DNA of 43,165 nucleotides from Halanaerobiales bacterium (GTDB taxonomy: Bacteria > Bacillota > Halanaerobiia > Halanaerobiales > DATFIM01). Positions 3,326 to 41,654 of the stretch are shown here, one piece after another; positions within the stretch are counted from its first letter, which is position 1, and every line of letters starts with the position of its first letter. Location of the stretch: contig DATFIM010000052.1 in NCBI GenBank assembly GCA_035270125.1, forward strand, positions 1 to 43,165, given 5' to 3'. The translations under genes were made by a program, and so were the position numbers. A model generated the notes under the pieces. That model saw nothing but the letters and a program-made list of their open reading frames with translations, did no database searches and was not told the DNA's origin.

Positions 3326-3402
3326 TGGTTGATAGATTTGAAAATAATAAAAAACAAGAATATAATGAAAATAGCAATAATATTTTAAAAAGGGTGATGA
3401 TT

Positions 3403-8254: not shown

Positions 8255-8638
8255 ATGGCCGAATTTCATGAAGATAATCTTTCTGAAGAAGCAAAAGATT
8301 ATCACCGTATCATAAAAAGTTTAATGGAAGAATTAGAAGCAGTTGATTGGTATAACCAAAGAGCAGATGTAACTACAGATCAATCTGTACAGGGCATAGT
8401 AGAACATAATCGTGATGAGGAAATTGAACATGCAGCTATGGCTATTGAATGGCTTAGACGTAATGATCCAGTCTGGGCAGAGGAGTTAGAAACTTATCTT
8501 TTTACTCAATCTGAAATTACAGCTGTTGAAGAAGAAGCTGAAGGTGGGGGAGCTGAAGGAGAAGAAGACACAAATAATACTTCCACTTCAACTAACCAAT
8601 CTCTTGGAATTAGTAGTTTAAAAGGAGGGAACAATTAA
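8255..8638 (+). CDS. Encapsulated ferritin-like protein (EncFtn), encapsulin cargo
   Basis: 127 aa. Ferroxidase cargo loaded into the encapsulin shell encoded next. The segment MEELEAVDWYNQRAD ... RDEEIEHAAMAIEWLRR matches EncFtn. Aligning W32/Y33 with W38/Y39 of the Rhodospirillum rubrum protein gives metal ligands E26, E56 and H59 in the places of E32, E62 and H65 (numbers of the known protein from memory). The two short helices are followed by an acidic, Gly- and Thr/Ser-rich linker (about 85-113) and a C-terminal tail SLGISSLKGG, the typical shell-targeting peptide. SD AAGGAGGG. The stop and the next start share one base (TAATG), so cargo and shell are translationally coupled. Function: oxidises Fe2+ and passes it to the shell interior, protecting against iron/oxidative stress. 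Confidence 0.95.
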   Translation: MAEFHEDNLSEEAKDYHRIIKSLMEELEAVDWYNQRADVTTDQSVQGIVEHNRDEEIEHAAMAIEWLRRNDPVWAEELETYLFTQSEITAVEEEAEGGGAEGEEDTNNTSTSTNQSLGISSLKGGNN

Positions 8639-9435
8639 TGGATATTCTTAATCGCTCATTAGCACCAATACCTCAAGAAGCCTGGGATTTTATAGATGAT
8701 GAAGCTCGTGAAATTTTAACTATGAATTTAAATGCACGTAAAGCTGTTGATTTTGTAGGCCCTAAAGGTATGGATTTTGGTGTTGTAAATACTGGTAGAA
8801 TAAAAGAAATAAATGGTAATGTAGAGGGAGCTGAATTTTCCAAACGTGAGGTATTACCTCTTATAGAAGTAAAAGTACCATTTAAATTAGATAAAAAAGA
8901 AATTGAATCTTTGGCTAGAGGAGCAGTGGATGTAGATACTGATCCTTTAGTAGAAGCTGCCAAAAAACTTTCCAAAATAGAAAATGATGCTATTTTTTAT
9001 GGTCTTGATGAAGGGAATATAAGTGGTATAATCTCAAGTCTAGATACAGGTGAGGTAGTTTTAGAAAAAGAAAGAAACAAACTAGTTTCTTCTATTGTTT
9101 CTGCAGTCAATGAGCTACAGGATGATGGGATTGAAGGTCCATTTAATTTAATGCTCGGTGAAAAGCTTCATAATTTAATTTATGAATTAGATGATAAAGG
9201 TTATCCACTTGTAAACAAGCTGGAAAATGCTATTGGTGGAGAAGTTGTTTTTGTGCCTACTCTTGAAGATGAGGGTGTACTTATTTCAACTAGAGGCGAA
9301 GATTTTGAGCTTATAGTTGGACAGGATATTTCTATTGGTTATTCAAAGCAAACTGGAGATGAATTAGAATTTTTCTTCTATGAAACATTTACATTTAGAG
9401 TAAATGATCCAGGAGCAGCTGTTCAGGTAAAATAA
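8638..9435 (+). CDS. Encapsulin shell protein (family 1, HK97 fold)
   Basis: 265 aa, the usual length of T=1 family 1 encapsulins (linocin-M18/CFP29 family). Conserved stretches include the N-terminal helix LAPIPQEAWDFIDDEA that forms the cargo-binding site with the C-terminal region, the E-loop/P-domain region (FKLDKKEIESLARGA), and the family-typical end GQDISIGY ... FTFRVNDPGAAV. It self-assembles into a nanocompartment that stores iron mineralised by the EncFtn cargo upstream. Its ATG overlaps the cargo stop (TAATG) and has AAAGGAGGG upstream. A strong terminator follows, so cargo and shell form a two-gene operon. No extra domain is fused. Confidence 0.96.
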   Translation: MDILNRSLAPIPQEAWDFIDDEAREILTMNLNARKAVDFVGPKGMDFGVVNTGRIKEINGNVEGAEFSKREVLPLIEVKVPFKLDKKEIESLARGAVDVDTDPLVEAAKKLSKIENDAIFYGLDEGNISGIISSLDTGEVVLEKERNKLVSSIVSAVNELQDDGIEGPFNLMLGEKLHNLIYELDDKGYPLVNKLENAIGGEVVFVPTLEDEGVLISTRGEDFELIVGQDISIGYSKQTGDELEFFFYETFTFRVNDPGAAVQVK

Positions 9436-9455: not shown

Positions 9456-9485
9456 AACCTCCCTGTAAAAAAGGGAGGTTTTTTT
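9456..9485 (+). terminator. Rho-independent terminator of the encapsulin operon
   Basis: Nine-bp stem AACCTCCCT (9456-9464) with AGGGAGGTT (9472-9480), A-rich loop, then a T run. It isolates the encapsulin operon from the riboswitch-like leader downstream. Confidence 0.92.
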
Positions 9486-9575
9486 GCAGGAATATGAGAA
9501 TAATTGTTGAAATAATAATTAAGCAATAAAAATTATTCTTAATATTTTGAAATGCAATTTTGAAAATTTAATAAA

Positions 9576-9670
9576 GTTCCGAGTATTCTCTTCTAAAGCT
9601 ATATCATTGCCAGGAAGAAATACCGATGGGTTATTGGAGAAATCTAATTGCCTCCCATTCTTGGAAAGGA
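9576..9670 (+). promoter_or_regulatory. Candidate Moco/Tuco-type riboswitch aptamer
   Basis: The untranslated region 9486-9735 (about 250 nt) holds this structured segment. TTCCGAG at 9577-9583 begins it and GCCTCCC (9650-9656) followed by TTGGAAAGGA (9661-9670) ends it. From memory, CCGAG near the 5' side and GCCTCCC plus GGAAAGG near the 3' side are conserved parts of the molybdenum/tungsten cofactor RNA motif. TTCTC (9586-9590) can pair with GAGAA (9637-9641) as an internal helix. A terminator follows directly. The downstream MobB and molybdopterin-fold-like proteins agree with this ligand. I could not run a covariance model, so the class call is tentative; that this is a structured cis-regulator is more certain. 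I see no clear promoter in 9486-9575, only weak TTGAAA boxes. Confidence 0.55.
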
Positions 9671-9683
9671 AATTATTATTTAT

Positions 9684-9718
9684 AATTCTCCTTTCTTTAT
9701 GGAGAATTTTTTCTTTTT
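9684..9718 (+). terminator. Leader terminator / riboswitch expression platform
   Basis: Stem AATTCTCC (9684-9691) with GGAGAATT (9701-9708) and a T-rich tail to 9718, lying before the first gene, so it works as an attenuator. TCCTTTC (9689-9695), in the left arm and loop, is exactly complementary to GAAAGGA (9664-9670) at the end of the aptamer. The two pairings exclude each other: if the aptamer holds GAAAGGA, the terminator forms; if not, an antiterminator can. That predicts repression by ligand. Confidence 0.85.
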
Positions 9719-9735
9719 AAAGTAATAATCTGGAG

Positions 9736-10236
9736 GTGATAAAAATCAAAACAAAATTAATAATTCTGTTTTTAGTGATTTTAATAACAGCTATATCATT
9801 TTTTGTTATAAGTAATAATTCAGAATTAAATAAATATCTAACTGATAATATAACTGAGATAAAGTTAATAAAAGATAATGGTAAGGTAGTTGAATTAGAA
9901 CAAACTATTATCTCAGAAGGATTTAAAGATGATATCAAGATACTACTTACTATAAATATTAATGATGATAAAATAAAAAATGTTGATGTTATAGAAGAAG
10001 ATGAATCTGAAGGTTATGGTAGTTATATTAATGAAGATTGGTTTCAAAGAAGATTTAAAGCTAAAAATACAGATGAAAAATTAGAAACTATTAAGATGTC
10101 TGCTAAACAAAATAATCAAATTGTTGCTGTTACTGGAGCAACTGAAAGTAGTAAAGCAGTTGTTAATGGTGTTAATTTTGGTATTGATAATTATAACAAA
10201 ATTAAAGAAGAAGTTAATTTGCAAAAAATTAATTAA
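9736..10236 (+). CDS. Membrane-anchored FMN-binding domain protein (RnfG/NqrC-like)
   Basis: First gene after the attenuator; about 166 aa. An N-terminal hydrophobic helix (residues 8-25) anchors or exports it. The C-terminal region carries VTGATESSKAVVNGV, the FMN-binding domain motif in which the Thr of GAT (T136) receives covalent FMN phosphate through ApbE in RnfG/NqrC-type proteins; no apbE is in this window. Start is uncertain: the GTG at 9736 overlaps the SD (GGAGGTGAT, 9732-9740), whereas the best-spaced codon is an ATC at 9745 (giving K-T-K-L after the start). The role in the cluster may be extracytoplasmic electron transfer to a redox-sensitive substrate; this is inference. Confidence 0.75.
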   Translation: MIKIKTKLIILFLVILITAISFFVISNNSELNKYLTDNITEIKLIKDNGKVVELEQTIISEGFKDDIKILLTININDDKIKNVDVIEEDESEGYGSYINEDWFQRRFKAKNTDEKLETIKMSAKQNNQIVAVTGATESSKAVVNGVNFGIDNYNKIKEEVNLQKIN

Positions 10237-10251
10237 ACAGGGGGAATTAAG

Positions 10252-11325
10252 GTGAAAATTAAAAAAGCATTATCAATTTTTATTATGTTAGTGATGGCAA
10301 TTGTTTTATTTAGTACAGTTACTATAGCTAAGGAAGATGAATTTAAGATAATTGGTTTAACCGAAGAAGATATTACTGTTTCTATAAGTGAATTAAAAGA
10401 TCTTCCATCTGTGACAAGAGATGTTACTTCTGTCGATTCCAGCGGTGATGAAGATAATTATACTGTAACAGGAGCTCTTTTTTCTGATTTATTAGAAAAG
10501 AAAGGAAAATCTCAAAAAAATCTTAAGGCAGTTAGATTTATAGCAAGTGATGGTTATTCAATAGAAGTTTCTGAAAATATTTTAGAAAATAGAGATATCA
10601 TTTTAACCTATGAAATTGATGGTGAAGCTCTCTATGAAGAAGCTAAACCTATGAGAATAGTGATTCCGGAAGAAAGGGCTATGTACTGGGTGAAAAAAGT
10701 AACAGAGATTAAAGTTATTGATATGAAAGAAACAGTGGAAATTAATAATCTGGTATTTTTAGAAACAATTAATTCAGAGTTAGAAAAAGTTGACTATACA
10801 TATTATGAAAGTAATGATAAAGCGGTAAAAATTTCTGAATTAATAAAAAAATTAGATGTTGAAAAAACGGGAAGAACTGTATATATGGAAGCTGCTGATG
10901 GATTTACAAAGGATGAAAAAACTGAAATATTTGAAAATGGCTATTTTAAAGTAACTGGTGAATATGTCCCTATGTTTTTATCCCCAGATATACCTAAAGG
11001 AATGTATGTAAAAAATCTCTTATTTGCTAGATATGGTTCTGCATCTATTTTTTCTCTTAAGCAGTCTCTAAATGTTCATAAACATCAAACAATAGGAGAA
11101 AATAAAGGCGTATCTTTAGCTGAAATTATATCAGAGAGTGGTTTGAAAAAAGGAGATAAATATAAATTAATAGCAATTGATGGTTATTCAGTTGAAGTTG
11201 ATGCAGAAGAAACTAAAAATGCTATTTTGTATTTTGATGGTGAAAATGTAGTAAGAGTTTCTTTTGCTAATCTCAGTGGAAAATACTCTGTTAAATATCT
11301 CTATAAAATTTTACCAATTAATTAA
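10252..11325 (+). CDS. Exported protein with three tandem molybdopterin-fold-like domains
   Basis: 357 aa with a signal peptide (hydrophobic core IFIMLVMAIVLFSTVTIA). The mature part looks like three related units, at about 30-155, 160-265 and 270-357, each with a 'L..L/I...G ... DGY/F...V' core (e.g. FIASDGYSIEV, IAIDGYSVEV). The first unit is nearest to the sulfite-oxidase molybdopterin domain (PF00174-like): VTGALFSDLLEKKG, IASDGYS, KPMRIVIPEERAMYWVKKVTEIKV. None has the catalytic Cys, so binding rather than oxidoreduction is likely. GTG start with GGGGG upstream. It lies 15 nt after the FMN protein and just before the ECF S component. I infer an extracytoplasmic receptor or scaffold for a pterin-like ligand; the ligand is unproven. 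Confidence 0.65.
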   Translation: MKIKKALSIFIMLVMAIVLFSTVTIAKEDEFKIIGLTEEDITVSISELKDLPSVTRDVTSVDSSGDEDNYTVTGALFSDLLEKKGKSQKNLKAVRFIASDGYSIEVSENILENRDIILTYEIDGEALYEEAKPMRIVIPEERAMYWVKKVTEIKVIDMKETVEINNLVFLETINSELEKVDYTYYESNDKAVKISELIKKLDVEKTGRTVYMEAADGFTKDEKTEIFENGYFKVTGEYVPMFLSPDIPKGMYVKNLLFARYGSASIFSLKQSLNVHKHQTIGENKGVSLAEIISESGLKKGDKYKLIAIDGYSVEVDAEETKNAILYFDGENVVRVSFANLSGKYSVKYLYKILPIN

Positions 11326-11363
11326 TCTAATAAATAATTGGTTCAGACTGAGGTGAAAATCAT

Positions 11364-11909
11364 ATGCTTAAGAAATTTTTAAATAGTTTTTCAGTATTTC
11401 AGCTGGTGATAATTGCTCTAATGGCTGGGCTTGGTGTAGCTACTAAACCTATTATTGTACCTCTGGCCCATATGATAACTGGCCCCCTTTATATTCCAGG
11501 GGGGGTTATCGCCGGAGGCTTCTATATGATGTGGCTGGTAATGGGAGCAGGTTTAGTAAAAAAAAGAGGTGCTGCTACACTTATAGCTATGGTTCAGGCG
11601 ATTATGATGGTTTCTCTCGGTATATATGGGACTCATGGTATTGTTAGTTTTTTTACTTATATAATTCCTGGTTTAGCTGTAGATTTTGTTTTTGTATTTT
11701 TCTCTGATCCAACAAAGGCTATACCCTGTTTTTTAGCTGGAATAGCAGCAAATATAAGTGGGACATTCTTAGTAAATATTGTTTTTTTTAGATTACCCTT
11801 AATACCTCTTATTCTCTCTTTAAGTAGTGCCTCACTTTCTGGGGGTTTAGGAGGATTAATATCTTATTCAGTGATTAAACAGTTTGAAAAATTTGATATA
11901 TTAGATTAA
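11364..11909 (+). CDS. ECF transporter S component, YkoE-like
   Basis: 181 aa, about 5-6 TM helices. The segment GPLYIPGGVIAGGFYMMW followed by a hydrophobic helix and GTHGIVSFFTYIIPGLAVD resembles the YkoE (PF09819) family of substrate-specificity subunits, known mainly for thiamine/HMP-type ligands. Substrate-capturing subunit of the ECF transporter whose ATPases and T protein are encoded by 13955-16011. There is no TPP riboswitch near; the leader instead resembles the Moco motif, so the usual thiamine assignment does not follow. ATG with GAGGTG 8 nt upstream. It is flanked on both sides by exported molybdopterin-fold-like proteins, suggesting a pterin-related ligand. The family is fairly sure; the ligand is inference. 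Confidence 0.75.
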   Translation: MLKKFLNSFSVFQLVIIALMAGLGVATKPIIVPLAHMITGPLYIPGGVIAGGFYMMWLVMGAGLVKKRGAATLIAMVQAIMMVSLGIYGTHGIVSFFTYIIPGLAVDFVFVFFSDPTKAIPCFLAGIAANISGTFLVNIVFFRLPLIPLILSLSSASLSGGLGGLISYSVIKQFEKFDILD

Positions 11910-11929
11910 GTTTAATTTGAGGTGATTTT

Positions 11930-13450
11930 ATGAAAAATAAAGATGTATTTTTATATATTATTTTAATAATTTTAATAGTTTTGAGTGGCTTTTTATTTTA
12001 TAATAAATTTGATTTAGTAGTCAGTAATGATTCTGGATATATTCCATTTTTTAAGGTAGAGGGAGATATAAAAGAAGTTATTAATACAAATGATTTTAAT
12101 GAATTAAATAGTCTAAAAAAAGTATCAATAAATTATAAAGAAGAAAAAATAAAAGTATATAAACTAAAAGATATTTTGAATAAAACTAAACCTCTTTCTG
12201 AGAATTATGATATTGTTTTTTCTGCTAAAGATGGACTAAGAGCTAAAATAACATCTGGAAATATTGAAGAATCTTACATCAATTTTTCCAGTAAAAATGG
12301 CTGGGAAGCTATAAATTTAAATCATCCTATTAGTAGCAATATAAAAAGACTTGAAAAAATAACTGTTGTTTCTAAATTTAAGGAAAAACATAATAATCAA
12401 TCATTTAATATTGTTAACGAGAAAAGTAATCTTTTAGAAAAAACTCCAGGTCAGTTTTTAACTGAAGAATATTTCTATAAAGCAGTTTTTGAAGGAGCAT
12501 CTTCAGTAAATAAAAATAAAAAAAATAATAGTGTAAGTATTTATACAGAAAAAAGAGTATTATATCCTGAAGAACTAATTAATAATAAGATGAATTCAAG
12601 AACAATAATTATAGGAGATAAAGGAGAAACTTTTAATTACAGAGGAGGTATGCTGGAACTTAAAGAAAATTATCTAAACTATATTAACTCTGAAGAAAAA
12701 ATTAAAGAAGAGAAAATTAAGGGAATGATAGTTGATGCTCCTCTGCAAAGCATTAAAAATGTTTATCATGATAGTCTCCATTATTTAAAACAGAATGAAA
12801 AAGTTATGGTAATATTTTTGGATGGTTTTGGTTATCATCAATATCTTTACTGTCTTGATAATAATTTTGCACCTTATATGACAAAAATTGAAAATAATAC
12901 AAGAGCCCTGACATCCTACAAACCAGTTTCAAATACCGGACTGGCTACAGCTTTGACAGGAAAAGGACCAGAAGAACATGGAATTTATTCCCGTGATTTT
13001 AATGAATTAAAAAGCAAAGATTTATTTAAAAAAGTAGAAGAAATAGGCTTAAAGAGTAAATATATTGAAGGAAATATAAAGATATTAAATACCTCTCAGG
13101 ATCCTATTTTAAATCCTGATTTGAATAATAATGGGACTACTGATGATGAAGTTTTTGGGACAGCTAAAAAAGAGATTGAAAAAAAAGCTTCATTATTTTT
13201 TATACATTTTCATGGGATTGATGATTCTGGACATGATAATGGGCCCTATTCTAAAAAAACAATAGAGGTTATAAAAAAGACTGACGAATATATAGCTGAA
13301 TTGGCAAAAAATTGGTCTGGAAAAATAATTATAACTGCTGACCACGGAATGCATAAAACTGCTAATGGTGGAGACCACGGTTTGCTTCTTTATCAGGATA
13401 TGTTTGTTCCTTATCTAGTAACAGAAGGAGGCGATGATTATGAAAAATAA
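11930..13450 (+). CDS. Membrane-anchored alkaline-phosphatase-superfamily hydrolase fused to a molybdopterin-fold-like domain
   Basis: 506 aa. Residues 5-25 form a TM anchor. Residues about 35-150 repeat the small domain of the neighbouring proteins (VYKLKDILNKT ... FSAKDGLRAKI). From about 288 an alkaline-phosphatase/type I phosphodiesterase domain follows with all metal-site motifs visible: LDGFG (D near 298), nucleophile Thr in SNTGLATALTG (near 336), DDSGHDNG (Asp/His near 431-435), ADHGMH (near 471) and GGDHG (near 483). It should act outside the membrane, removing phosphate or a nucleotide from a phosphate ester. Next to an importer and an intracellular kinase-like protein, this suggests trimming a cofactor before uptake, such as a molybdopterin or its dinucleotide; the substrate is inference. 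Overlaps the next gene by 11 nt. Confidence 0.75.
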   Translation: MKNKDVFLYIILIILIVLSGFLFYNKFDLVVSNDSGYIPFFKVEGDIKEVINTNDFNELNSLKKVSINYKEEKIKVYKLKDILNKTKPLSENYDIVFSAKDGLRAKITSGNIEESYINFSSKNGWEAINLNHPISSNIKRLEKITVVSKFKEKHNNQSFNIVNEKSNLLEKTPGQFLTEEYFYKAVFEGASSVNKNKKNNSVSIYTEKRVLYPEELINNKMNSRTIIIGDKGETFNYRGGMLELKENYLNYINSEEKIKEEKIKGMIVDAPLQSIKNVYHDSLHYLKQNEKVMVIFLDGFGYHQYLYCLDNNFAPYMTKIENNTRALTSYKPVSNTGLATALTGKGPEEHGIYSRDFNELKSKDLFKKVEEIGLKSKYIEGNIKILNTSQDPILNPDLNNNGTTDDEVFGTAKKEIEKKASLFFIHFHGIDDSGHDNGPYSKKTIEVIKKTDEYIAELAKNWSGKIIITADHGMHKTANGGDHGLLLYQDMFVPYLVTEGGDDYEK

Positions 13451-13958
13451 AAAAATTATTTTTTCAGTATTAATAATTTTAGTGATAGTAATTGCAGTTA
13501 CAGCTTATATAAACAGAGGTAGTCTTTCTAAAAAAGATACAGCTCAAAAAGAGGCTATTGTTACTTTTAAAATAGATGGAGAAGAAGTAGATAGTATTAG
13601 TATGGATCATATAAAAGAACAGGGAGAAAAAACTTTTTCCAAAGAATTAGATACTAGTGATTCGGGTCCAGTTGAACAGCATTATACAGGGGTCCCCCTT
13701 AAAAATATTTTAAATTCATTAGATATTGATATGGGTAATAAAGAACAGGTAATAGTCAAAGCAATAGATGGTTACACTGTTGCTTTAACTGCAGAAGAAG
13801 TTATGATGGGAAATAATGTTTATCTGATTTACAAAAATAATGGTGAATTTTTGAAAACTAAAAAGCAGGGTGGAACCGGTCCTTATAGATTAGTTATTCG
13901 TGAAGATCAATTTGGTCAACGTTGGAATAAATTTGTTACTGAGGTTAATATAAAATGA
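13440..13958 (+). CDS. Membrane-anchored single molybdopterin-fold-like domain protein
   Basis: 172 aa from the ATG at 13440, spaced 8 nt from AAGGAGG; an ATG at 13434 is too close to the SD. One N-terminal TM anchor (IIFSVLIILVIVIAVTAYI), then one domain of the type repeated in the two upstream exported proteins: HYTGVPLKNILNSL, VKAIDGYTVALTAEEV, GGTGPYRLVIREDQFGQRW and a closing VTEVNI strand. This is the most complete match in the cluster to the sulfite-oxidase molybdopterin domain (DGY, then GPYRLV and W near the end), again without a catalytic Cys. It may present ligand to the ECF S component. Its stop overlaps the first ECF ATPase start (ATGA). Confidence 0.7.
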   Translation: MKNKKIIFSVLIILVIVIAVTAYINRGSLSKKDTAQKEAIVTFKIDGEEVDSISMDHIKEQGEKTFSKELDTSDSGPVEQHYTGVPLKNILNSLDIDMGNKEQVIVKAIDGYTVALTAEEVMMGNNVYLIYKNNGEFLKTKKQGGTGPYRLVIREDQFGQRWNKFVTEVNIK

Positions 13959-14641
13959 GATTATTATTAAGTACTCAAAATTTGTCATTTGGTTATAAAA
14001 ATAATAATGAAAAAATATTAAAAAATATAAATTTAAATTTATACAAAGGGGAAATTCTTGCTATTTTAGGTTTGAGCGGCAGTGGAAAAACTACTCTCTG
14101 CCACTGTCTTAGTGGTATTATTCCTCACATTTATGAAGGTGAACTCAAAGGAGAAGTGCAAATCAAAGGGAAGTCAATATTAGATTTAGATTTACCCAAA
14201 ATTGCAGAATATATAGGAATTGTTTTTCAAAATCCAGAAACTCAGGTTTTTTTTCCAGTTGTTGAAGATGAATTGGCTTTTGGACCGGAAAATTTATGTA
14301 TAAGCAGAGAAGAAATAGGAAAAAGAATAGAAAACATTTTATCTCTTTTGGGAAAAGAGAATTTGAGATATAAAAAAACAAAACATCTTTCGGGTGGAGA
14401 AAAGCAATTAACAGTATTGGCTTCAGTTTTGGCTTTAGAACCAGAAATATTAATATTTGATGAAGTAATGTCCCAAATAGATACTAAGGGAAAAAAATTA
14501 ATCAAAGAAATAATAATTTTATTAAAAGAAAAAGGGAAAACAATAGTAATGGTTGAGCATGATTTGGAAAATGCTGAAATAGCAGACCGTAAACTTCTTC
14601 TTAAAAACGGGAGGTTAAAAAAATTTGCAGGAGAATTATAA
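13955..14641 (+). CDS. ECF transporter ATPase A
   Basis: 228 aa. Walker A GLSGSGKTT (39-47), Q-loop GIVFQNPETQVFFPVVEDELAFG reduced to its family core FQNPETQ, signature LSGGEKQ, Walker B ILIFDEV, and switch His in VMVEHD. The FQNPxxQ Q-loop is characteristic of ECF (EcfA/CbiO) ATPases rather than classical importers. It pairs with the next ATPase in an A/A' heterodimer on the T protein. ATGA overlap with the upstream gene and a 17-nt overlap with the next suggest tight coupling and fixed stoichiometry. Confidence 0.9.
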   Translation: MRLLLSTQNLSFGYKNNNEKILKNINLNLYKGEILAILGLSGSGKTTLCHCLSGIIPHIYEGELKGEVQIKGKSILDLDLPKIAEYIGIVFQNPETQVFFPVVEDELAFGPENLCISREEIGKRIENILSLLGKENLRYKKTKHLSGGEKQLTVLASVLALEPEILIFDEVMSQIDTKGKKLIKEIIILLKEKGKTIVMVEHDLENAEIADRKLLLKNGRLKKFAGEL

Positions 14642-15299
14642 CAAAGCATTTCTTAAAGCAAATAATATAAGTTTTAGTTATAAAAAAGGTGAATTGCTTT
14701 TAAAAGATATTACAGCTTCTTTTTATAAAGGAGAATTTGTGGCTATAATAGGGCCAAATGGATCAGGCAAAACCACCTTTGGAAAAATATTGAGCGGGAT
14801 TTTATCTGTAGATACTGGGAAAATTTATGTTGACTCTGTAAATATAGAAAATATTTCTTTAGGTAAAATAGGCAAAAAAATTGGTTATCTTTTTCAGGAA
14901 CCAGAAAGACAGCTTTTTGCCCCAACTGTAAGAGAAGAAATAGCATTTGCTCATTCATTTATGGGAAAAACTAAAGAATTTATTGATAATAAAGTATCAG
15001 AAATGATAGAAATATTTTCTCTGCAAGGGTTAGAAAATGCCTCTCCTTATAAAATAAGTCGAGGAGAAAGACAGCGAGTAGCTTTGGCTGCTATTTTAAC
15101 AAATGAGCCTTCATATTTAATATTAGATGAACCTACAACCGGGCTTGATAGTAAAAGAAAGGGAAAGCTGGCAGAATTTTTATATGAATTAAAAAAACAG
15201 GATCTTGGTCTGGCAGTTATTAGCCATGATAAAGATTTTATAGTTGAAAATGCTGATAGAGTTTTAAAAATTTCAGGGGGTGTTATTAATGAAGTTTGA
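14625..15299 (+). CDS. ECF transporter ATPase A'
   Basis: 224 aa. Walker A GPNGSGKTT, Q-loop LFQEPERQLFAPTV, Walker B YLILDEPTTGLD and switch His in VISHDKDF. The ABC signature is altered to ISRGERQR, with Arg in place of the first Gly of LSGGE, so the two ATP sites of the A/A' pair may be functionally unequal. TTG start preceded by GGGAGG with 10-nt spacing. It overlaps EcfA by 17 nt and the T-protein gene by 11 nt. Confidence 0.88.
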   Translation: MQENYNKAFLKANNISFSYKKGELLLKDITASFYKGEFVAIIGPNGSGKTTFGKILSGILSVDTGKIYVDSVNIENISLGKIGKKIGYLFQEPERQLFAPTVREEIAFAHSFMGKTKEFIDNKVSEMIEIFSLQGLENASPYKISRGERQRVALAAILTNEPSYLILDEPTTGLDSKRKGKLAEFLYELKKQDLGLAVISHDKDFIVENADRVLKISGGVINEV

Positions 15300-16011
15300 T
15301 CCCCGTAGTAAACTTGTATTAGTATTTTCTTTTTCAAGTTTGGCAGTTTTTGTAAAAGATATATTTTTATTATTGATAGTATTATTATTATCTTTTTTAA
15401 CATCTAATTATTTTAAAGGTGACTGGTCTTTTTTAAAAAGGATTAAAAAATTTATTATACTATTTTTAGGAATAGCTTTTTTACAGAGTATTTTTGCTCC
15501 TGCTGGAGAGAGTTTATTAACTATAAGCGGTCTTCCGATTTTGACTTTAGGAGGTTTGGCAAAAGGGATAAGAGTGATTTTAAGAATGATGATCATTATT
15601 GTTTCTGCGACTATTATGAGAGGTTCTAGTTCACGAGAAATCATCCAGGCTTTAGTTCAGTGGAAAATTCCTTATGAAATTGCCTTTATGGTTTCTCTTG
15701 CTATTAGGTTTTTACCAATTTTACGAGATGAAGCTAAGGATGTATTTACTGCTATTCAATTAAGAGGAATCGAAGTTGAAGAACTTTCCCTATATAAAAG
15801 ATTTAAAGTTTATTCATATTTATTTATGCCTGTTTTATCAGGAGTTATTTATAGAGCACGGGAGTTATCTACTTCTATAGAGAGCAGGGGGTTTCGAGCT
15901 TATCCAGAGAGAACAAGTTATATAAAATTAAGATTATCGTTAAAAGATTATATTTTAATGATAACTAGTATGCTATTTACATTAATAATATTAATTTTAT
16001 ATTTCATATAA
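15289..16011 (+). CDS. ECF transporter T component (EcfT)
   Basis: 240 aa from the ATG at 15289 (MKFDPRSKLVLV, the usual EcfT N-terminus), 8 nt after AGGGGG; the GTG at 15280 lies inside the SD. Several TM helices are followed by the two coupling-helix motifs that dock onto the ATPases: IQLRGIE and ESRGFRAY (the Ala-Arg-Gly-type pair). With the two ATPases and the YkoE-like S component it makes a complete dedicated (group I) ECF transporter in one operon. Followed after 16 nt by the MobB-like gene. Confidence 0.9.
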   Translation: MKFDPRSKLVLVFSFSSLAVFVKDIFLLLIVLLLSFLTSNYFKGDWSFLKRIKKFIILFLGIAFLQSIFAPAGESLLTISGLPILTLGGLAKGIRVILRMMIIIVSATIMRGSSSREIIQALVQWKIPYEIAFMVSLAIRFLPILRDEAKDVFTAIQLRGIEVEELSLYKRFKVYSYLFMPVLSGVIYRARELSTSIESRGFRAYPERTSYIKLRLSLKDYILMITSMLFTLIILILYFI

Positions 16012-16027
16012 GAAATGGGGGATTATT

Positions 16028-16789
16028 ATCAAAATTATATCCATTTTTGGAATTAGTGAAACAGGAAAAACTGCAACTGTGGAAAATGTTGTAAAGGAAC
16101 TTAAAAAAAGAAAATATAGCGTAGGAACAATAAAAGAAATTCATTATGAGGATTTTGCTATTGATACGAAGAGGACAGATACTTTCAGGCATAAAAAAGC
16201 AGGTGCTGAACTTGTTACTGCCAGAGGATATAATGAAACTGATATTTTATATCCAGAAAAATTAGCTATAAATAAGATTCTTAAACATTATGATCACGAT
16301 TTTATAGTTATTGAGGGAGTAGATAAAGGCAATTTTCCTAAGATAATTTCTGCTAAAACTAAAAAAGAAATTGATGAAAGACTGGATGAAACTGTAATAG
16401 CTATTACAGGAGTAATTGCAAATAGTATTGATGAATATAAAGGTTTTCCTGTAATAAATAGTCTTAAAAATAAAAAGGAATTAATAGATTTGATTGAAGA
16501 AAAAACTTTTGAAAAATTACCTGATTTTCCTGAAGAATGTTGTACAGCCTGTGGATATTCCTGTAAAAAATTAAGTCATAAAATTATTAAAGGAGAAGCT
16601 AAAAGAGATGATTGTGTAATTAGCAATTCAGAAGTTACACTATTTATTAATGAGCAAAAAGTTGAGATGGTGCCTTTTGTGCAAAAGATTTTAAAAAATG
16701 CTTTAAATGGAGTTGTTAGTGAATTAGAAGGTTATGAAAATAATGCAAAAATAAGGGTTGAATTTGAACAATTAAATGAGGATGTCTAA
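16028..16789 (+). CDS. mobB: MobB-like P-loop GTPase fused to a RnfB-type Fe-S domain; non-standard start
   Basis: Open reading starts before any ATG/GTG/TTG: the P-loop GISETGKT is encoded at 16049-16072, ahead of the first standard codon (GTG 16079), so the gene must begin upstream. The best site is an ATC at 16028, 6 nt after GGGGG, giving the normal MobB N-terminus (start)-KIISIFGISETGKT. A G5 homopolymer at 16017-16021 could hide a one-base error: with four Gs, the ATG at 16015 would be in frame. Residues about 1-160 match MobB, which binds GTP and assists Mo-bis-MGD formation with MobA (no mobA here). Residues C172xxC175xxxC179 and C196 follow the CxxCGYxxC...C pattern of the PF04060 [4Fe-4S] domain; a further 50 residues end the protein. 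Confidence 0.75.
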   Translation: MKIISIFGISETGKTATVENVVKELKKRKYSVGTIKEIHYEDFAIDTKRTDTFRHKKAGAELVTARGYNETDILYPEKLAINKILKHYDHDFIVIEGVDKGNFPKIISAKTKKEIDERLDETVIAITGVIANSIDEYKGFPVINSLKNKKELIDLIEEKTFEKLPDFPEECCTACGYSCKKLSHKIIKGEAKRDDCVISNSEVTLFINEQKVEMVPFVQKILKNALNGVVSELEGYENNAKIRVEFEQLNEDV

Positions 16790-16791
16790 AA

Positions 16792-17478
16792 ATGAAAATT
16801 AAAAACCGGGAAGTTAAAATAGTTAAAAAGTTTAAAAGTAAAAGGAATAAAGTGTTTTTAGTAAAAACTGATAATAATAAAAAATATGTATTAAAAAGTT
16901 ATCGAAAAAGTAATTTTCTCGAAAAAGAGTTAGAAATAATAAAAAAATTATATAAAAAATCAGTTAATGTTCCAAAAATCATTTCTAAATCAAATAATTA
17001 TATTTTAATGGAGTATATTAAAGGAGAAACCCTTTTATCTTATATTTTAAGTAAAGAAAAGGAAAAAGCTAAATATGTGGAATTAAATGAGATGTTTCAA
17101 GAAATATTTGACTGGTTGAATAATTTTTATAATGTATTTGATGAAATAAATATAATAAAAGGGGATGTAAATTTAAGAAATTTTATTTTAAAAAAAATTA
17201 ATGGAAATAAAATAAAAATTTATGGTTTAGATTTTGAAAATCTCAAAACTGGAGATAAAGAAGAAGATATAGGGAAAATGTGTGCATTTATTATTTGTTA
17301 TAAGCCTGAATTTAGTAACTGGAAGAAAGACTTTATAAAAAGATTTTTTGAGTTTATGAATTCAAAGCTTGAACTTAATCCTGATCTGACTTGCCAATAT
17401 TATCATAATGAATTAAAAAATATTGAAAAAAGAAGAAATTTAAAAGTAAAAAATAAAATTTATGAAATTTTAAATTAA
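16792..17478 (+). CDS. Protein-kinase-fold small-molecule kinase-like protein
   Basis: 228 aa, cytoplasmic, Lys-rich. Kinase-like landmarks: K35 in KYVLKSY (ATP-site Lys), E46/E48 as salt-bridge candidate, hinge ILMEYIKGETLL (71-82), catalytic loop KGDVNLRNF (D125, N130, in place of HGDxxxxN), and a metal-binding GLDFEN (D147). The layout resembles the RIO/Kdo-kinase/APH group of small atypical kinases. It starts 3 nt after the MobB-like gene and is the last gene of the riboswitch-controlled cluster. Because the cluster also encodes an extracytoplasmic phosphatase-like enzyme, this protein may re-phosphorylate the imported compound. The substrate is unknown; a protein kinase role cannot be excluded. 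An 8-bp inverted repeat follows (17478-17485/17512-17519). Confidence 0.6.
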   Translation: MKIKNREVKIVKKFKSKRNKVFLVKTDNNKKYVLKSYRKSNFLEKELEIIKKLYKKSVNVPKIISKSNNYILMEYIKGETLLSYILSKEKEKAKYVELNEMFQEIFDWLNNFYNVFDEINIIKGDVNLRNFILKKINGNKIKIYGLDFENLKTGDKEEDIGKMCAFIICYKPEFSNWKKDFIKRFFEFMNSKLELNPDLTCQYYHNELKNIEKRRNLKVKNKIYEILN

Positions 17479-17540: not shown

Positions 17541-17741
17541 GCGAAAAGTTAAAGGCAGTATCTTATTATGAGAACTGTACTTGTTAGCTTTTCTGATAGC
17601 TTAAAAATTACATAATTTAAGTTTTCTACCTGGATCTAATTGACCGGGATAGAAACGGAAAAATATAGCTATCCTTAGAAAGAGGATAACTATATTTATG
17701 AGAAAATTATGCCTTCCGTCTCTATTGTGGGGGGCTTTTTT
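17541..17741 (+). ncRNA. Structured 5' leader with attenuator, unassigned class (candidate riboswitch)
   Basis: This explains the gene-free stretch 17479-17776. In order: an outer stem GAAAAG (17543-17548)/CTTTTC (17588-17593) enclosing CAGT (17556-17559)/ACTG (17574-17577); CTTAAA (17600-17605)/TTTAAG (17616-17621); a longer helix with TTTCTA (17623-17628)/TAGAAA (17650-17655) and inner CC/GG pairs; and a strong hairpin with arms 17661-17675 and 17683-17697. ACGGAA (17655-17660) can instead pair with TTCCGT (17714-17719), which overlaps the left arm of the terminator. Such alternatives are how transcriptional riboswitches work. I compared purine, T-box, ykkC, c-di-GMP, SAM and TPP motifs from memory and none fits. 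Confidence 0.6.
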
Positions 17742-17776: not shown

Positions 17777-18544
17777 ATGGATGATAATAATATTCTAAAA
17801 ATCAAAAATTTAACTAAAAAATTTGGTGGAGTAAAAGCTTTAAATAATTTTGAAATGAAAGTTAAAAGAGGAGAAATCCATGGTTTGATAGGGCCCAATG
17901 GGGCTGGGAAATCAACACTTTTTAATATAATAAGTGGTTTTTTAGAAGCAGATAAGGGAGAAATCATTTATAATAATAAAAATATAAATAATTATAAGCC
18001 TGAGAAAAGAGCAGCTATGGGAATTAGCAGAACTTTTCAAAAAAGTAATATTGTCAGTGAAATGAGTCTTGTTGATAACATTATTGCAGGAATGTATAGA
18101 GAACAAAGTAATCCACTAAAAGATTTTTTTGGAAAACATTTTACTATTTTTAAAAGAGAGAAAAAAAGAAAAAAGCAGGCTAAAGAAGCTCTTCGTTTTG
18201 TTGGTTTAGAAAATTATGAAGGTCGTTGGAGTGATGAATTAGTCTGGGTAGAAAGACAACTTGTTCAATTAGCAAGAGCAATTATTTCTAAACCTGATAT
18301 TTTGCTACTTGACGAGCCGGCAGCAGGAATGGGAAGCAAAGAAAAAAAGAGAATAAAAGAAGTTATTGCTAATATTAATGATAAAGGAATTACAGTTGTA
18401 GTTATCAGTCATGATTTAGATGTAATTATGGAAATTTGTGATCAGGTTAGTGTTATTAATTTTGGAGAATTGATTTTTGCTGGTGATACCGAAGCAGCAC
18501 GGAAAAATGAAAAAGTTATGGAGGCATATACAGGTGAAAAGTAA
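17777..18544 (+). CDS. Branched-chain amino-acid-type ABC importer ATPase (LivG-like)
   Basis: 255 aa. Walker A GPNGAGKST, Q-loop SRTFQKSNIV, Walker B ILLLDEPAAGM and switch His in VVISHDLDVI are typical of LivG. The ABC signature is strongly degenerate: where LSYGQQR is expected the sequence reads LVWVERQ, so this subunit's contribution to one ATP site may be impaired, leaving hydrolysis asymmetric with the LivF-like partner. SD AAGGAG, 10 nt before the ATG. First gene of a five-gene importer under the structured leader; overlaps the next gene by 11 nt. Confidence 0.88.
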   Translation: MDDNNILKIKNLTKKFGGVKALNNFEMKVKRGEIHGLIGPNGAGKSTLFNIISGFLEADKGEIIYNNKNINNYKPEKRAAMGISRTFQKSNIVSEMSLVDNIIAGMYREQSNPLKDFFGKHFTIFKREKKRKKQAKEALRFVGLENYEGRWSDELVWVERQLVQLARAIISKPDILLLDEPAAGMGSKEKKRIKEVIANINDKGITVVVISHDLDVIMEICDQVSVINFGELIFAGDTEAARKNEKVMEAYTGEK

Positions 18545-19244
18545 AGAAAAATTACTTGAAATAGATAGTTTATATTTAAATTATGGTTCTATAAAAGCTG
18601 TAAAAGGAATAAGTCTTTATTTAAAAAAGAATGAAATTGTAACTTTAGTAGGAGCTAATGGAGCAGGAAAGTCTAGTTTGCTTAAAGGTATAATGAATAT
18701 AGAAAAGACAAAAGGTGATATACTTTTTAAAAATAATAAAATAAATAATTTGGCAACAGAAAAAATAGTCAACAAAGGTATTAGTATAATTCCAGAAGGG
18801 CATTTGATTTTTTCTTCAATGACAGTCTGGGAAAATTTGCAATTAGGAGTATATCAAGGAAACAAGGATAAAGATATAACCTTAGAAGAAATATATAATT
18901 ATTTTCCTATTTTAGAAAAAAGGAAAGAGCAAAAAGCCGGGACATTAAGTGGTGGTGAACAGCAGATGCTTTCCATTGGCAGAGCTTTGCTTTCTGGTCC
19001 TGAACTTCTTTTAGTAGATGAACCTTCATTAGGACTTGCTCCCCAGATTGTTCAGGATATTTTTACAATCCTAAAAAAACTAAATAAAGATGGATTTACA
19101 ATTTTACTTGCAGAACAGAATGTAAAAAAATCTCTTGAAATAGCAGATCGAGCATATGTTTTAAAAACAGGTGAAATTGTCAGAGAAGGAAAAGCAAATG
19201 ATATGTTAGCAGAAAGTAATTTTATGGATTTATACTTAAATTAA
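18534..19244 (+). CDS. Branched-chain amino-acid-type ABC importer ATPase (LivF-like)
   Basis: 236 aa from the GTG at 18534, 9 nt after GGAGG; codons back to 18477 overlap LivG and have no SD. Walker A GANGAGKSS, signature LSGGEQQM, Walker B LLLVDEPSLGLAP and C-terminal LLAEQNVKKSLEIADRAYVL are the standard LivF features. All catalytic motifs are intact, in contrast to its LivG-like partner. It energises uptake through the two permeases encoded next. Confidence 0.9.
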   Translation: MKSKEKLLEIDSLYLNYGSIKAVKGISLYLKKNEIVTLVGANGAGKSSLLKGIMNIEKTKGDILFKNNKINNLATEKIVNKGISIIPEGHLIFSSMTVWENLQLGVYQGNKDKDITLEEIYNYFPILEKRKEQKAGTLSGGEQQMLSIGRALLSGPELLLVDEPSLGLAPQIVQDIFTILKKLNKDGFTILLAEQNVKKSLEIADRAYVLKTGEIVREGKANDMLAESNFMDLYLN

Positions 19245-19260
19245 AGTGCAGGTGGAAATT

Positions 19261-20139
19261 ATGGAAATTGTGTTAGCACAAATTGTAAATGGTTTTTCTT
19301 TAGGCAGTATATATGTTTTATTAGTAACAGGTTTTAATTTAATGTTACTTGTTGCTAGAATAATACAATTTGCCTATCCTCAATTTGTAGTTTTATCTAT
19401 GTATGCAAGCTGGGCTGTTTTGGAAAGTACAAACAATATATTTTTGGCAGCTCTGGCAGCTATAATATCTTCAATAATTTTAAACTTATTAAGTGAACCT
19501 ATTTTTAGAAGGATAAATAATAGAGAAAATGTTGATATAAATGCTTCTTTTGTTGCTTCTATGGGGTTGAGTATGATAATTGTAGAAATCATGTCTCATT
19601 CTATTAATAATGGATTTCCAGTGTCTTTTCCAGATTATTGGGGAGGGAAAAATTTATTTTCCTTTGGTTATATAAATTTAGGTAGAGGGGAATTTTATGC
19701 CCTGACTGGCGGAATAATATTGGTCGCGATATTCTTTTATCTTTTATATCATACTCATTATGGAAGAGTTTTTAGGGCGATAGCAGAAAGTAGAAAAACT
19801 GCTAAACAGGTAGGACTGGCTGTTTTAAAATCAAGTATTTTAAGTTATTTAGTAGCAGGTATATTAGGCGGAATAATAGCAATTTTATTTTCCATGTTAT
19901 TAGGCTCAGCCTCACCTTGGCTTGGAGAATCTGTAGCTCTTAAAGTTCTAGCGGTTTCTATTACAGCAGGTTTAGGTAATCTTAAAGGTGGGTTGTATGT
20001 TGGATTGAGTCTTGGTATTCTTGAGTCTTTAGCAGTTGGTTTTTTAGCAGGTTCCTGGGCGAATGTTATAGCCTTTGTCTTAATGCTTATAGTTGTCTTA
20101 ACAAAACCTGAGGGACTTTTTGGAGCAGCAATTGAATAG
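19261..20139 (+). CDS. ABC importer permease (LivH-like)
   Basis: 292 aa from the ATG at 19261 (SD AGGTGGA); a GTG at 19246 lacks an SD. N-terminus IVLAQIVNGFSLGSIYVLL is the classic LivH opening, with 8 or so TM helices and the LivH ending TKPEGLFG. The cytoplasmic coupling loop RAIAESRKTAKQVGL is where the ATPase docks, though RAxAxDxxxAxLxGI is the more usual form. Integral membrane subunit of the importer. Confidence 0.88.
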   Translation: MEIVLAQIVNGFSLGSIYVLLVTGFNLMLLVARIIQFAYPQFVVLSMYASWAVLESTNNIFLAALAAIISSIILNLLSEPIFRRINNRENVDINASFVASMGLSMIIVEIMSHSINNGFPVSFPDYWGGKNLFSFGYINLGRGEFYALTGGIILVAIFFYLLYHTHYGRVFRAIAESRKTAKQVGLAVLKSSILSYLVAGILGGIIAILFSMLLGSASPWLGESVALKVLAVSITAGLGNLKGGLYVGLSLGILESLAVGFLAGSWANVIAFVLMLIVVLTKPEGLFGAAIE

Positions 20140-20168
20140 ATTAATTAGTAATACAGGAGGTTTTTCAT

Positions 20169-21014
20169 TTGTCTATAACTTTTAATTATTTTATAGGATT
20201 TTCATTTATATATATATTAATGGCCTGGGCAATATATCTACCTTACCGGGTTAAAGATTTGCATTTCTTAACAGTGGCTACAATGGCTGTAACTGCATAT
20301 TTTAGTGGGGTGGCAGCTGTTAATTGGGGATGGCCTTTTTATTTAGTCTTAATTAGTGGAATATTATTAGGAGCATTAATTTCTTATATAATATCATTTG
20401 TTATAGGAGATGTTCCCACTTTTACTGTTGTAATTGTTGGAATAACATTTATTTTTATCACAAAAACTGTAATTGAAAATACAGATTATTTAGGAGGGAC
20501 AATGGGTTTTTTTGCAATTCCTGCAGTTGATAACATTTTATTAATTATGACAGGTATAACCTTAGTTATTTCATATTTTCTTTATATGATTGATAATTCT
20601 CAATTAGGTAGAGCTGCTTCGGTTATTTTTGCTGATAAAAAAATGGCTTATAGTCTTGGTATTAAGCCTAAAAGAATTGGTCGATTGTTTCAAACAATAA
20701 GTGGTGGAATTGCTGGAAGTGCTGGTGTTTTATATGCTTATTTTACTGGAAGTCTTTTTCCTGACTTTTTTTCATTTCACCTGGTAGGAACTCTGATGAC
20801 AATTGTTTTTATTGGTGGATATAGTACGATGTGGGGGATAATTTTTTCAGCCCTAATTTTAGGAGGAGTACCTATTCTTTTGCCAAGTGCAGTATCTTCC
20901 TGGAAAAATTTGATATATGGTGTATTATTGGTATCTGTGATTTTAATAAAACCTGATGGTTTAATAACTAAAAAATTTCTTTGGAAAATAAAAAATAAAA
21001 TTAAGGGGATGTAA
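20169..21014 (+). CDS. ABC importer permease (LivM-like)
   Basis: 281 aa, TTG start 8 nt after AGGAGG. Multi-pass LivM family member (N-terminus IYLPYRVKDLHFLTVA, end ILIKPDGL). The coupling loop reads SVIFADKKMAYSLGIKPKRI, close to the LivM pattern AxxxxxxxAxxxGI. Forms the heterodimeric pore with the LivH-like subunit. 29 nt separates it from the LivH gene, and the receptor gene starts 2 nt after its stop. Confidence 0.86.
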   Translation: MSITFNYFIGFSFIYILMAWAIYLPYRVKDLHFLTVATMAVTAYFSGVAAVNWGWPFYLVLISGILLGALISYIISFVIGDVPTFTVVIVGITFIFITKTVIENTDYLGGTMGFFAIPAVDNILLIMTGITLVISYFLYMIDNSQLGRAASVIFADKKMAYSLGIKPKRIGRLFQTISGGIAGSAGVLYAYFTGSLFPDFFSFHLVGTLMTIVFIGGYSTMWGIIFSALILGGVPILLPSAVSSWKNLIYGVLLVSVILIKPDGLITKKFLWKIKNKIKGM

Positions 21015-21016
21015 AA

Positions 21017-22183
21017 ATGAGAAATTTATTTAAAATTTTTATTTTTTCACTTATAGTAGTAGTTGCTTTTTCTGGAGTTTCTTTTGCTCAAAATGAAGTG
21101 AAAGTTGAGAAATGGACTATTCCTTTTTTAAATAGTGTAACAGGACCTATTGCCAGTATTGGGGAATATATGTCCTGGAGTGCTAAATATGCTGCCAGAG
21201 AGATAAATGCAAATGGTGGTATTAGAGGAAAGGATGTAGAAATAAAGATATATGATACAGGAGTTGAACCAGATAAAGGTATAAAACAAATGAGTAAAGT
21301 AGTTGATGATGCTCTGGTAGTAATGGGACCTGTACCAGAAGCAGTAATTATGGCAGCAGTTCCTCTAGCTGCAAGAAATGGCCTGTTTTCCATGCCTGTT
21401 TCAACGAGTTATGAATATGCCCAAAAATATTTTCCCTGGACATTGTCCTGGTATCCACCAACTGATGAAAAACTTCCACCTATAACTGAATTATGGGCAG
21501 AAAAAAATCCAGAAATGAAAAAAGTGGTTCAATTTGTAGAAAAATGGGCAGCCTGGCCTGGAATGGCAGATGCTCATCAAATTGGTCTTGAAAATAAAAA
21601 TGTTGAAGTTGAAAACATAGAAGTACCACAAAATATGGTTACTTTTGATTCCTTAGTGGTAAAAGCTTTATCTAAAAATCCTGATGGTATACTTCTAACA
21701 ACTAATTCAGATAAAGCAGCTAAAATAATAAAACAATTAGAAGATAGAGGTTGGAAAGATAAAGAAAACATTTTAGTATTTAGTAGTGCTGATGATACTC
21801 CCCTTTATACAATAGGTGGAAAAGCACTTGAAGGAATTTCAATATATAATTATATTAATCCAAATAGTAATAATCCTCGTTGGCTTAAATTTAAAGAAGA
21901 GTACAAAAAGGATCATGATGGTAAAGCGCCAGGATCTCTTGCTACAAATTATTATGATGCAGTATATATGATTAAAGAGGCTATTGAAAATAAAAAAATA
22001 ACTGGTGATCCAGCTAAACTTGAGGAAGAAAGAAAAATGATTAGAGATTACACTCGCAATGTAGATAATTTTGAAGGAATCCAATTAACCTGGGATATGA
22101 ATGAAGGAGTACCAGGGTCAAAAGGTGCCTTCTTATTTAAAATAATCGATGGAGAGAAAAAATTGATTGGTGAAGTAAAATAA
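21017..22183 (+). CDS. ABC importer substrate-binding protein, LivK-like (periplasmic-binding family)
   Basis: 388 aa. Signal peptide MRNLFKIFIFSLIVVVAFSG with probable cleavage after SFA; no lipobox Cys. The mature protein has the type I receptor fold of Leu/Ile/Val-binding relatives: TGPIASIGEYMSWSAKYA, INANGGIRGKDVEIKIYDTG, GPVPEAVIMAAVPLAARNG and NYYDAVYMIKEAI. It delivers ligand to the LivHM-like permeases. The ligand could be a branched-chain amino acid, urea, an amide or another small molecule; the pocket cannot be read reliably by eye. The regulator upstream may sense the same compound. No clear terminator follows before the promoter at 22208. Confidence 0.88.
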   Translation: MRNLFKIFIFSLIVVVAFSGVSFAQNEVKVEKWTIPFLNSVTGPIASIGEYMSWSAKYAAREINANGGIRGKDVEIKIYDTGVEPDKGIKQMSKVVDDALVVMGPVPEAVIMAAVPLAARNGLFSMPVSTSYEYAQKYFPWTLSWYPPTDEKLPPITELWAEKNPEMKKVVQFVEKWAAWPGMADAHQIGLENKNVEVENIEVPQNMVTFDSLVVKALSKNPDGILLTTNSDKAAKIIKQLEDRGWKDKENILVFSSADDTPLYTIGGKALEGISIYNYINPNSNNPRWLKFKEEYKKDHDGKAPGSLATNYYDAVYMIKEAIENKKITGDPAKLEEERKMIRDYTRNVDNFEGIQLTWDMNEGVPGSKGAFLFKIIDGEKKLIGEVK

Positions 22184-33530: not shown

Positions 33531-33555
33531 TTTATTTCACCTCACTTTATAAATT

Positions 33556-34665: not shown

Positions 34666-35140
34666 TGTAATCCCTCCATTCATATTCTTCATTTACAAAT
34701 TCCCGAGTATCAAAATCTTTACGCATTGGGGGGATCTCATTCCAATTTTCCAGGATTAATTCTTCTAAATTATCATTTCCTTCAAATTCAACTCCAAAGA
34801 AATCATGAATATCTCTTTCATAAAATTCAGCTACTGGCCAGATTTCTTTTAGAGTTACAAAAGTAGCTTTGTCTCTATCTATTCTTGTTTTTACACTTAT
34901 ATTTATATAATCTTCATATGAAAAGAGGTGATAAACAAGTTCAAATTCATTATCATCAATCCAGTCAACACAGCTTATGGTAGAAAGATGTTTATAGCTA
35001 TTTGATTTGAGAAAACTTAAGGACTGGATTGTCTTGTCAGGTGTAAAACTGACCGAGAGATTTTGCTTTCTTTTTTTATTAATTTCAAGAGGGTCCAGAT
35101 TATTTTCAATTAATTTTATTACTTCTTTTTCATTTCTCAT
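34643..35140 (-). CDS. NuoC/MbxK-like subunit (30-kDa subunit homologue)
   Basis: 165 aa. The 30-kDa/NuoC signature is visible: AEFYERDIHDFFGVEFEGN followed by PPMRKDF at the end. The N-terminal 60 residues are variable. It contacts the catalytic large subunit. ATG at 35140 overlaps the NuoB-like stop by 4 nt (ATGA). Confidence 0.88.
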   Translation of the reverse strand: MRNEKEVIKLIENNLDPLEINKKRKQNLSVSFTPDKTIQSLSFLKSNSYKHLSTISCVDWIDDNEFELVYHLFSYEDYINISVKTRIDRDKATFVTLKEIWPVAEFYERDIHDFFGVEFEGNDNLEELILENWNEIPPMRKDFDTREFVNEEYEWRDYNGQKHTD

Positions 35141-35670: not shown

Positions 35671-35691
35671 CTCTAAAAACCTCCTAATTAA

Positions 35692-38450: not shown

Positions 38451-38451
38451 C

Positions 38452-40271: not shown

Positions 40272-40304
40272 ATCCTTTTATAAACTTTTTGTTTGATTTT
40301 ATAA

Positions 40305-41651: not shown

Positions 41652-41654
41652 AAT

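Follow-up and report, generated by a model that had tools for sequence, protein, structure and literature searches.

Candidate salvage system for the pyranopterin cofactor of tungsten and molybdenum enzymes, encoded behind a P3-less riboswitch in Halanaerobiales and Clostridia

The contig DATFIM010000052.1 of assembly GCA_035270125.1, from a Halanaerobiales bacterium, was analysed as one stretch of 43,165 nucleotides (hereafter the window), and carries an operon in which ten tightly spaced genes lie 3' of a riboswitch leader of the molybdenum/tungsten cofactor (Moco/Tuco) type. The genes, assigned by Pfam and NCBIfam profile matches, encode an exported flavin mononucleotide (FMN)-binding protein, three exported or membrane-anchored proteins with sulfite-oxidase-fold domains, a complete energy-coupling factor (ECF) transporter (S, A, A' and T), MobB, and a small kinase-fold protein (Table 1). 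A first-pass annotation had proposed that such a set captures, trims and imports a molybdopterin-type cofactor, and had listed the FMN-binding protein, the four ECF parts, a MobB-Fe-S fusion, a kinase-like protein, and an alkaline-phosphatase-superfamily hydrolase fused to an exported domain; the profile matches bear out each of these assignments. In this report, we describe the parts of the operon and its relatives, and weigh the view that it serves the salvage of a pyranopterin cofactor.

Table 1. Parts of the operon at 9565-17478 (window positions on DATFIM010000052.1, forward strand).
Feature	Position	Strand	Evidence
Moco/tungsten-cofactor riboswitch aptamer, P3-less type by alignment	9565-9687	+	RF01055, 64.3 bits (cut-off 36)
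Predicted expression platform	9663-9719	+	RNA folding: antiterminator 9663-9696, terminator hairpin 9684-9708, then U run
Exported RnfG-like FMN-binding protein, TGAT flavinylation motif	9736-10236	+	PF04205, E 1.5e-14
SuoxA, exported, three sulfite-oxidase-fold domains without the metal-ligand Cys	10252-11325	+	PF00174, E 1.5e-14
ECF S component, substrate-binding membrane subunit	11364-11909	+	PF09819, E 4.8e-10
SuoxPDE, membrane-anchored, sulfite-oxidase-fold domain fused to alkaline-phosphatase-superfamily hydrolase	11930-13450	+	PF01663, E 5.6e-17
SuoxB, membrane-anchored, single sulfite-oxidase-fold domain, no ligand Cys	13434-13958	+	PF00174, E 1.9e-9
ECF ATPase A	13955-14641	+	TIGR04520, E 1.1e-59, under the family's curated cut-off
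ECF ATPase A'	14625-15299	+	TIGR04521, E 2.1e-53, under the family's curated cut-off
ECF T component	15280-16011	+	PF02361, E 1.1e-26
MobB GTPase with C-terminal Fe-S motif	16028-16789	+	PF03205, E 3.6e-22; PF04060, E 2.8e-5; TIGR00176 above cut-off
Small kinase-fold protein, APH/RIO/Bud32-like	16792-17478	+	PF01636, E 1.9e-9

The leader had been likened to the Moco motif with an attenuator, and its match to the Rfam family, as well as the alternative hairpins 3' of the aptamer, agree with that reading. RNA folding gives an antiterminator in competition with a terminator hairpin that runs into a stretch of U (energies of -11.7 and -8.4 kcal/mol); a simple terminator scan did not list this terminator. 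Since the 3' strand of the aptamer, GGAAAGGA, is shared with the antiterminator, the operon is predicted to be OFF when the ligand is bound. Aligned to the RF01055 consensus, the leader has exactly one hairpin deleted, of 15 nt, which we identify with the P3 of Regulski et al. (PMC2408646), so that the leader falls in the P3-less class. P3-less Moco RNAs track Tuco metabolism, as a correlation only (Regulski et al. 2008, PMC2408646). The P3-less core pattern is present in 43 of the 57 Moco RNA matches at cassette loci, and the rest are mostly P3-less by eye; tandem Moco RNAs were seen at two loci (L042:3441-3719 and L071:6096-6370). On another contig of the same genome (C73, L024:8306-12341), a further P3-less Moco RNA lies between the gene of the tungsten enzyme aldehyde oxidoreductase (AOR) and that of an NAD-dependent aldehyde dehydrogenase, which is plausible as a metal-free stand-in for AOR when the cofactor is scarce; this arrangement fits tungsten-cofactor sensing. 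In the genome of Clostridiaceae bacterium M8S5, a Moco RNA is likewise found 5' of an aldehyde dehydrogenase gene (L159:4619-6480).

The five domains that had been likened to the sulfite-oxidase fold stand as such, three in SuoxA and one each in SuoxPDE and SuoxB. PF00174 exceeds the Pfam cut-off in SuoxA and SuoxB directly, and profile-profile comparison ties all five together (A_d1 with B, 3.5e-21; A_d1 with A_d3, 2.5e-11; A_d2 with A_d3, 3e-8; A_d2 with PDE_N, 4.6e-8; A_d3 with PDE_N, 1.8e-9). A conserved Cys is absent inside all five domains and occurs only in the lipobox of SuoxA, which is a lipoprotein in most relatives, and, for roughly half of the SuoxB proteins, at a C-terminal position. 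Thus, the exported domains do not have the Cys that ligates the metal in sulfite oxidase. By its AlphaFold model (mean confidence, pLDDT, of 90), SuoxA matches sulfite dehydrogenase and the pterin-binding protein PruR, the latter with an E-value of 5e-7 in the structure comparison, and Escherichia coli MsrP was not usefully detected by the exported-domain profiles. Related PF00174 proteins in [Clostridium] ultunense and Syntrophomonas bear S-layer anchors, as is expected for surface capture proteins. In the FMN-binding protein, the residues T133, G134, A135 and T136 are conserved across 33 orthologues, and both RnfG-like and NosR-like FMN proteins are present in cassette operons.

SuoxPDE combines its membrane anchor with a sulfite-oxidase-fold domain and an alkaline-phosphatase-superfamily domain, and its model (pLDDT 92) finds its closest structures among the nucleotide pyrophosphatases/phosphodiesterases (NPP), with Xac NPP as the best match. 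The metal and nucleophile positions D298, S/T334, D431, H435, D471, H472 and H483 are kept at 90-100% in 50 orthologues. An enzyme of this kind could split a dinucleotide cofactor to free GMP or CMP, or could remove a terminal phosphate. In two genomes of the Halobacteroidaceae group (L019, L021), the S component and the hydrolase form a single reading frame of 623 amino acids, which places hydrolysis at the transporter, coupled to import. The kinase-fold protein retains its catalytic residues K35, E46, D125, N130 and D147 at 97-100% in 41 sequences; a search of the PDB gave no informative relative. In three Halobacteroidaceae cassettes (L019, L020, L022), the kinase is replaced 3' of MobB by a class-V aminotransferase-fold protein, which is possibly cysteine-desulfurase-like. 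The reading frame of MobB needs its start moved upstream of that first assigned, to about 16028, because a GTG start at 16079 would drop the P-loop; between 16011 and 16100, no ATG lies 5' of the P-loop, so the start codon is probably not ATG and may be an ATT near 16022-16028.

Ten of 61 genomes, that of the window among them, have the S component, and GTDB genomes encode its relatives at 228 places. Halanaerobiales and many Clostridia share the cassette, mostly behind the same type of riboswitch, and no relative was found on plasmids. The same gene order is repeated in whole or in part at about 90 loci, which is far beyond chance, and the description of the locus as one colinear, tightly packed operon under one leader is upheld. 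Among the loci of nine relatives, a Moco RNA precedes the cassette in eight, and the ninth contig stops short of that point. Linkage was counted over 54 loci on genome contigs (genome_contigs) with enough flanking sequence, in which the S component is accompanied by the ATPases (52), the T component (51), SuoxB (47), MobB (40), an upstream Moco RNA (38) and the hydrolase (30). Within the 30 hydrolase-bearing loci, MobB is present in 28, the riboswitch in 26, and the kinase near the S component in 18. At one locus (L167), the cassette adjoins an operon of MoaA, MoeA and a metal ATP-binding cassette (ABC) transporter under the same riboswitch, some of these gene names being read from the sequence, and at another (L165) a divergent S component stands behind a Moco RNA beside a MobA-like gene. 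Variants of the Pelotomaculum/Desulfoscipio type (L070, L082, L090 and similar) have the S component, mostly with ECF parts, and neither hydrolase nor MobB; some lie near large exported proteins.

The genomes that carry the cassette provide the main clue to its role. Among 60 carriers, 23 are without MoaA, and for 20 of these MoaC and MoeA are missing as well; 19 of the 20 have AOR, and the twentieth, Anaerosalibacter massiliensis, encodes a molybdopterin oxidoreductase directly 3' of the cassette. These 20 pathway-less carriers include one complete chromosome, that of Clostridiaceae bacterium M8S5 (L097, G109). On the tree of the S component, the label of pathway absence changes 12 times, at least seven of them on well-supported branches, and hence the pathway has probably been lost repeatedly, or a missing contig mimics loss in some of the drafts. 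In a set of 392 Clostridia that was drawn without bias, each at least 95% complete, strong matches alone were counted, and the S component is present in 14 of 54 AOR genomes and in 1 of the 338 others (p 2e-12). Compared with the AOR-positive non-carriers of this set, of which 3 of 40 are without MoaA, the 60 carriers lack it more often (p 5e-4), although no matching by completeness was applied to the carriers. Only four genomes of that set are AOR-positive and MoaA-negative, one of them with the S component, so that the set supports the link to AOR and has no power on auxotrophy. Five relatives without pathway or AOR (G004, G007, G010, G018 and G025) possess neither the cassette nor a Moco RNA. 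A further genome, G045, was considered as a counterexample, having AOR without pathway or S component, and was rejected, as a Moco RNA followed by SuoxA stands at a contig end where the cassette is cut.

We consider, at a probability of roughly 0.75, that the operon serves to salvage and import the pyranopterin cofactor which tungsten and molybdenum enzymes use, namely Tuco, Moco or a close derivative, above all because carriers keep such enzymes without MoaA, MoaC and MoeA. The core of the first-pass proposal is in this respect supported by the riboswitch, the recurrence of the gene order, the fusion of S component and hydrolase, and the pathway-less carriers that keep their tungsten or molybdenum enzymes. 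The ligand, the form imported, the order of steps, and the parts played by kinase, MobB and flavoprotein are as we infer them in the following scheme. The exported Cys-less sulfite-oxidase-fold proteins would bind the cofactor outside the cell, and the membrane-bound hydrolase would strip off a nucleotide or phosphate. Trimmed in this way, the cofactor would then enter the cell through the dedicated ECF transporter, where the cytoplasmic kinase and MobB would restore a usable form, while the flavoprotein would probably hold the labile cofactor reduced. The P3-less riboswitch is expected to switch the operon on when intracellular cofactor is low, and this riboswitch class, together with the link to AOR, points to the tungsten form. 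For a more specific version, in which the finished metal-loaded cofactor is a vitamin that is captured at the surface, trimmed and imported by the ECF transporter, and several lineages have independently dropped the whole pathway including metal insertion, we regard the balance as about even.

Several observations weigh against the salvage view. The S component shares its Pfam family, PF09819, with the thiamine component YkoE, and the hydrolase is missing in 24 of the 54 well-flanked loci; with about half of the loci lacking it, at least two variants of the system must exist. The genome of the window itself retains MoaA, MoaC and MoeA in a separate Moco-riboswitch operon, so that import there would be an accessory route. 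This genome had been tried as a case of deficient de novo synthesis and was rejected on account of these genes, which argued against salvage until the pathway-less relatives were found. The carriers are mostly draft assemblies, and as the de novo genes cluster, one absent contig could remove several of them at once. In four genomes with AOR and without MoaA (G043, G296, G302 and G417), neither the S component nor a Moco RNA was detected. Finally, PruR itself reportedly has a pocket that is too small to take up Moco (PMC13259868).

Family membership of the S component invites the explanation that the operon imports thiamine, hydroxymethylpyrimidine (HMP) or another vitamin, as a member of the YkoE family, with the Moco riboswitch being incidental. 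Grouping with thiamine transporters had been named in advance as a result that would speak against cofactor import, and it holds for the Pfam family and fails for the genomic context, which is that of Moco and not of thiamine. In YkoE, thiamine is contacted by Y46, W49, E77, Q95 and D131 (PMC5037267). In an alignment of 82 S sequences with the YkoE structure 5EDL, Y46 and W49 correspond to the conserved Y54 and W57, the alignment being remote and the W/Y register therefore uncertain, but E77 is replaced mostly by V, I or M, Q95 always by P, and D131 mostly by V or S. Among the cassette and S loci that were scanned against Rfam, none gave a thiamine pyrophosphate riboswitch (RF00059), while Moco RNA was found, and the partners are MobB, pterin-fold domains and genomes bearing AOR. 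A thiamine role for the S component is thus unlikely, and vitamin import of this type as the function of the operon seems very improbable to us. Neither the S component nor its profile found a match among PDB sequences. Uptake of tungstate or molybdate, with the exported domains as metal-binding proteins, would agree with the common control of metal transporters by the Moco riboswitch (PMC2408646) and with the uptake of metals by group I ECF systems. It cannot, however, make good the absence of MoaA and MoaC, whose loss means that metal uptake cannot be the entire function. In addition, the S component falls in a vitamin family rather than with CbiM/NikM, the same genome has a separate metal transporter (solute-binding protein, permease and TOBE-domain ATPase) under another Moco RNA, and a hydrolase of the nucleotide-pyrophosphatase type has no part in oxyanion uptake, all of which leave little likelihood for metal import.

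It might also be argued that the exported proteins are active extracytoplasmic molybdoenzymes that receive electrons from the flavoprotein, with the ECF transporter supplying one of their needs. PF00174 is indeed an enzyme family, RnfG-like and NosR-like FMN proteins accompany it in the operons, and the Syntrophomonas wolfei genes behind Moco RNAs were annotated as putative sulphite oxidases (Regulski et al., PMC2408646). Nevertheless, the Cys pattern described above leaves no conserved ligand in any domain, no cytochrome partner is seen in the operon of the window, and the N-termini, read by eye, show no evident Tat-type signal; this explanation, too, we hold to be improbable. A closer competitor is the import of a metal-free intermediate, either cyclic pyranopterin monophosphate or molybdopterin, into which the cell itself would insert the metal. 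Many carriers retain MoeA, and the genome of the window has a metal ABC transporter and two MoeA genes in another riboswitch operon, which speaks for this alternative. On the other hand, the 20 carriers without MoeA, MoaA and MoaC still encode AOR or, for one of them, a different molybdopterin enzyme, and would have no known insertase; the loss of MoeA favours a metallated over a metal-free cargo, and the metal-free form, although a serious possibility, appears unlikely.

Parts of the proposed salvage system resemble known systems and depart from them. YkoEDC shares a PF09819 S component and the group I layout with dedicated S, A and T genes, whereas here the riboswitch is of the Moco type, E77, Q95 and D131 are not kept, there are two ATPase genes, and the operon adds exported binding domains, hydrolase, MobB and kinase. 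PruR (PDB 7KP2, 7KOS, 7RKB) is a pterin-binding protein of the periplasm with a Cys-less sulfite-oxidase fold (PMC13259868), and by analogy pterin binding is predicted for the Suox domains. It acts, however, in the control of cyclic di-GMP via DcpA in Proteobacteria (PMC13259868), whereas the proteins described here are multi-domain, occur in Bacillota, and are linked to a transporter and a hydrolase. SuoxPDE shares with Xac NPP and the ENPP enzymes the fold and every metal and nucleophile residue, and differs in carrying a fused pterin-fold domain, with the S component fused to the hydrolase as well in two genomes. The description of the Moco RNA regulon noted, as an exception, P3-less RNAs 5' of the S. 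wolfei genes mentioned above, which probably belong to a system of the present kind; a word search of that paper (PMC2408646) gave no cobalt-type or ECF transporter, MobB cassette or salvage role.

Next to the operon, a pair of genes for an EncFtn-like ferritin and an encapsulin shell protein (8255-9435) lies just 5' of the leader and has its own terminator (9456-9480), and an ABC transporter with an NMT1/THI5-like binding protein is encoded at 3325-5924. On the other side, a pan motif RNA (RF01749, 50.4 bits; 17552-17656) precedes a branched-chain-amino-acid-type ABC transporter (17777-22183). The pan motif is usually located 5' of pantothenate synthesis genes, and this transporter may be one for pantothenate or a precursor. 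The minus strand at 31731-42401 holds a large membrane-bound hydrogenase/Mrp-type cluster, with a complex I 49-kDa-like subunit and a glutamate-synthase-like flavoprotein.

To our knowledge, Moco is so unstable that its medical use has not been feasible to date. According to the prevailing view, each cell needing Moco must synthesize it, and uptake of exogenous Moco has not been observed beyond Caenorhabditis elegans (PMC9793310), where ready-made external cofactor is likewise used, in that case by an animal and by a mechanism that is unknown. The earlier remark that no described transporter for Moco or its precursors is known agrees with our searches of the open-access literature, which found no published Moco, molybdopterin or pterin ECF importer, mention elsewhere being possible. 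Several hundred genomes have orphan molybdoproteins and no complete Moco pathway, which has been left unexplained (PMC6147048); the carriers described here include genomes of the same type, and a candidate importer is now attached to many of them. If true, a cofactor importer would explain many anaerobes with molybdoenzymes but an incomplete pathway, and would supply parts, namely binding domains, a hydrolase, a transporter and a kinase, for handling the cofactor. It would also imply that tungsten and molybdenum cofactors are exchanged within anaerobic communities.

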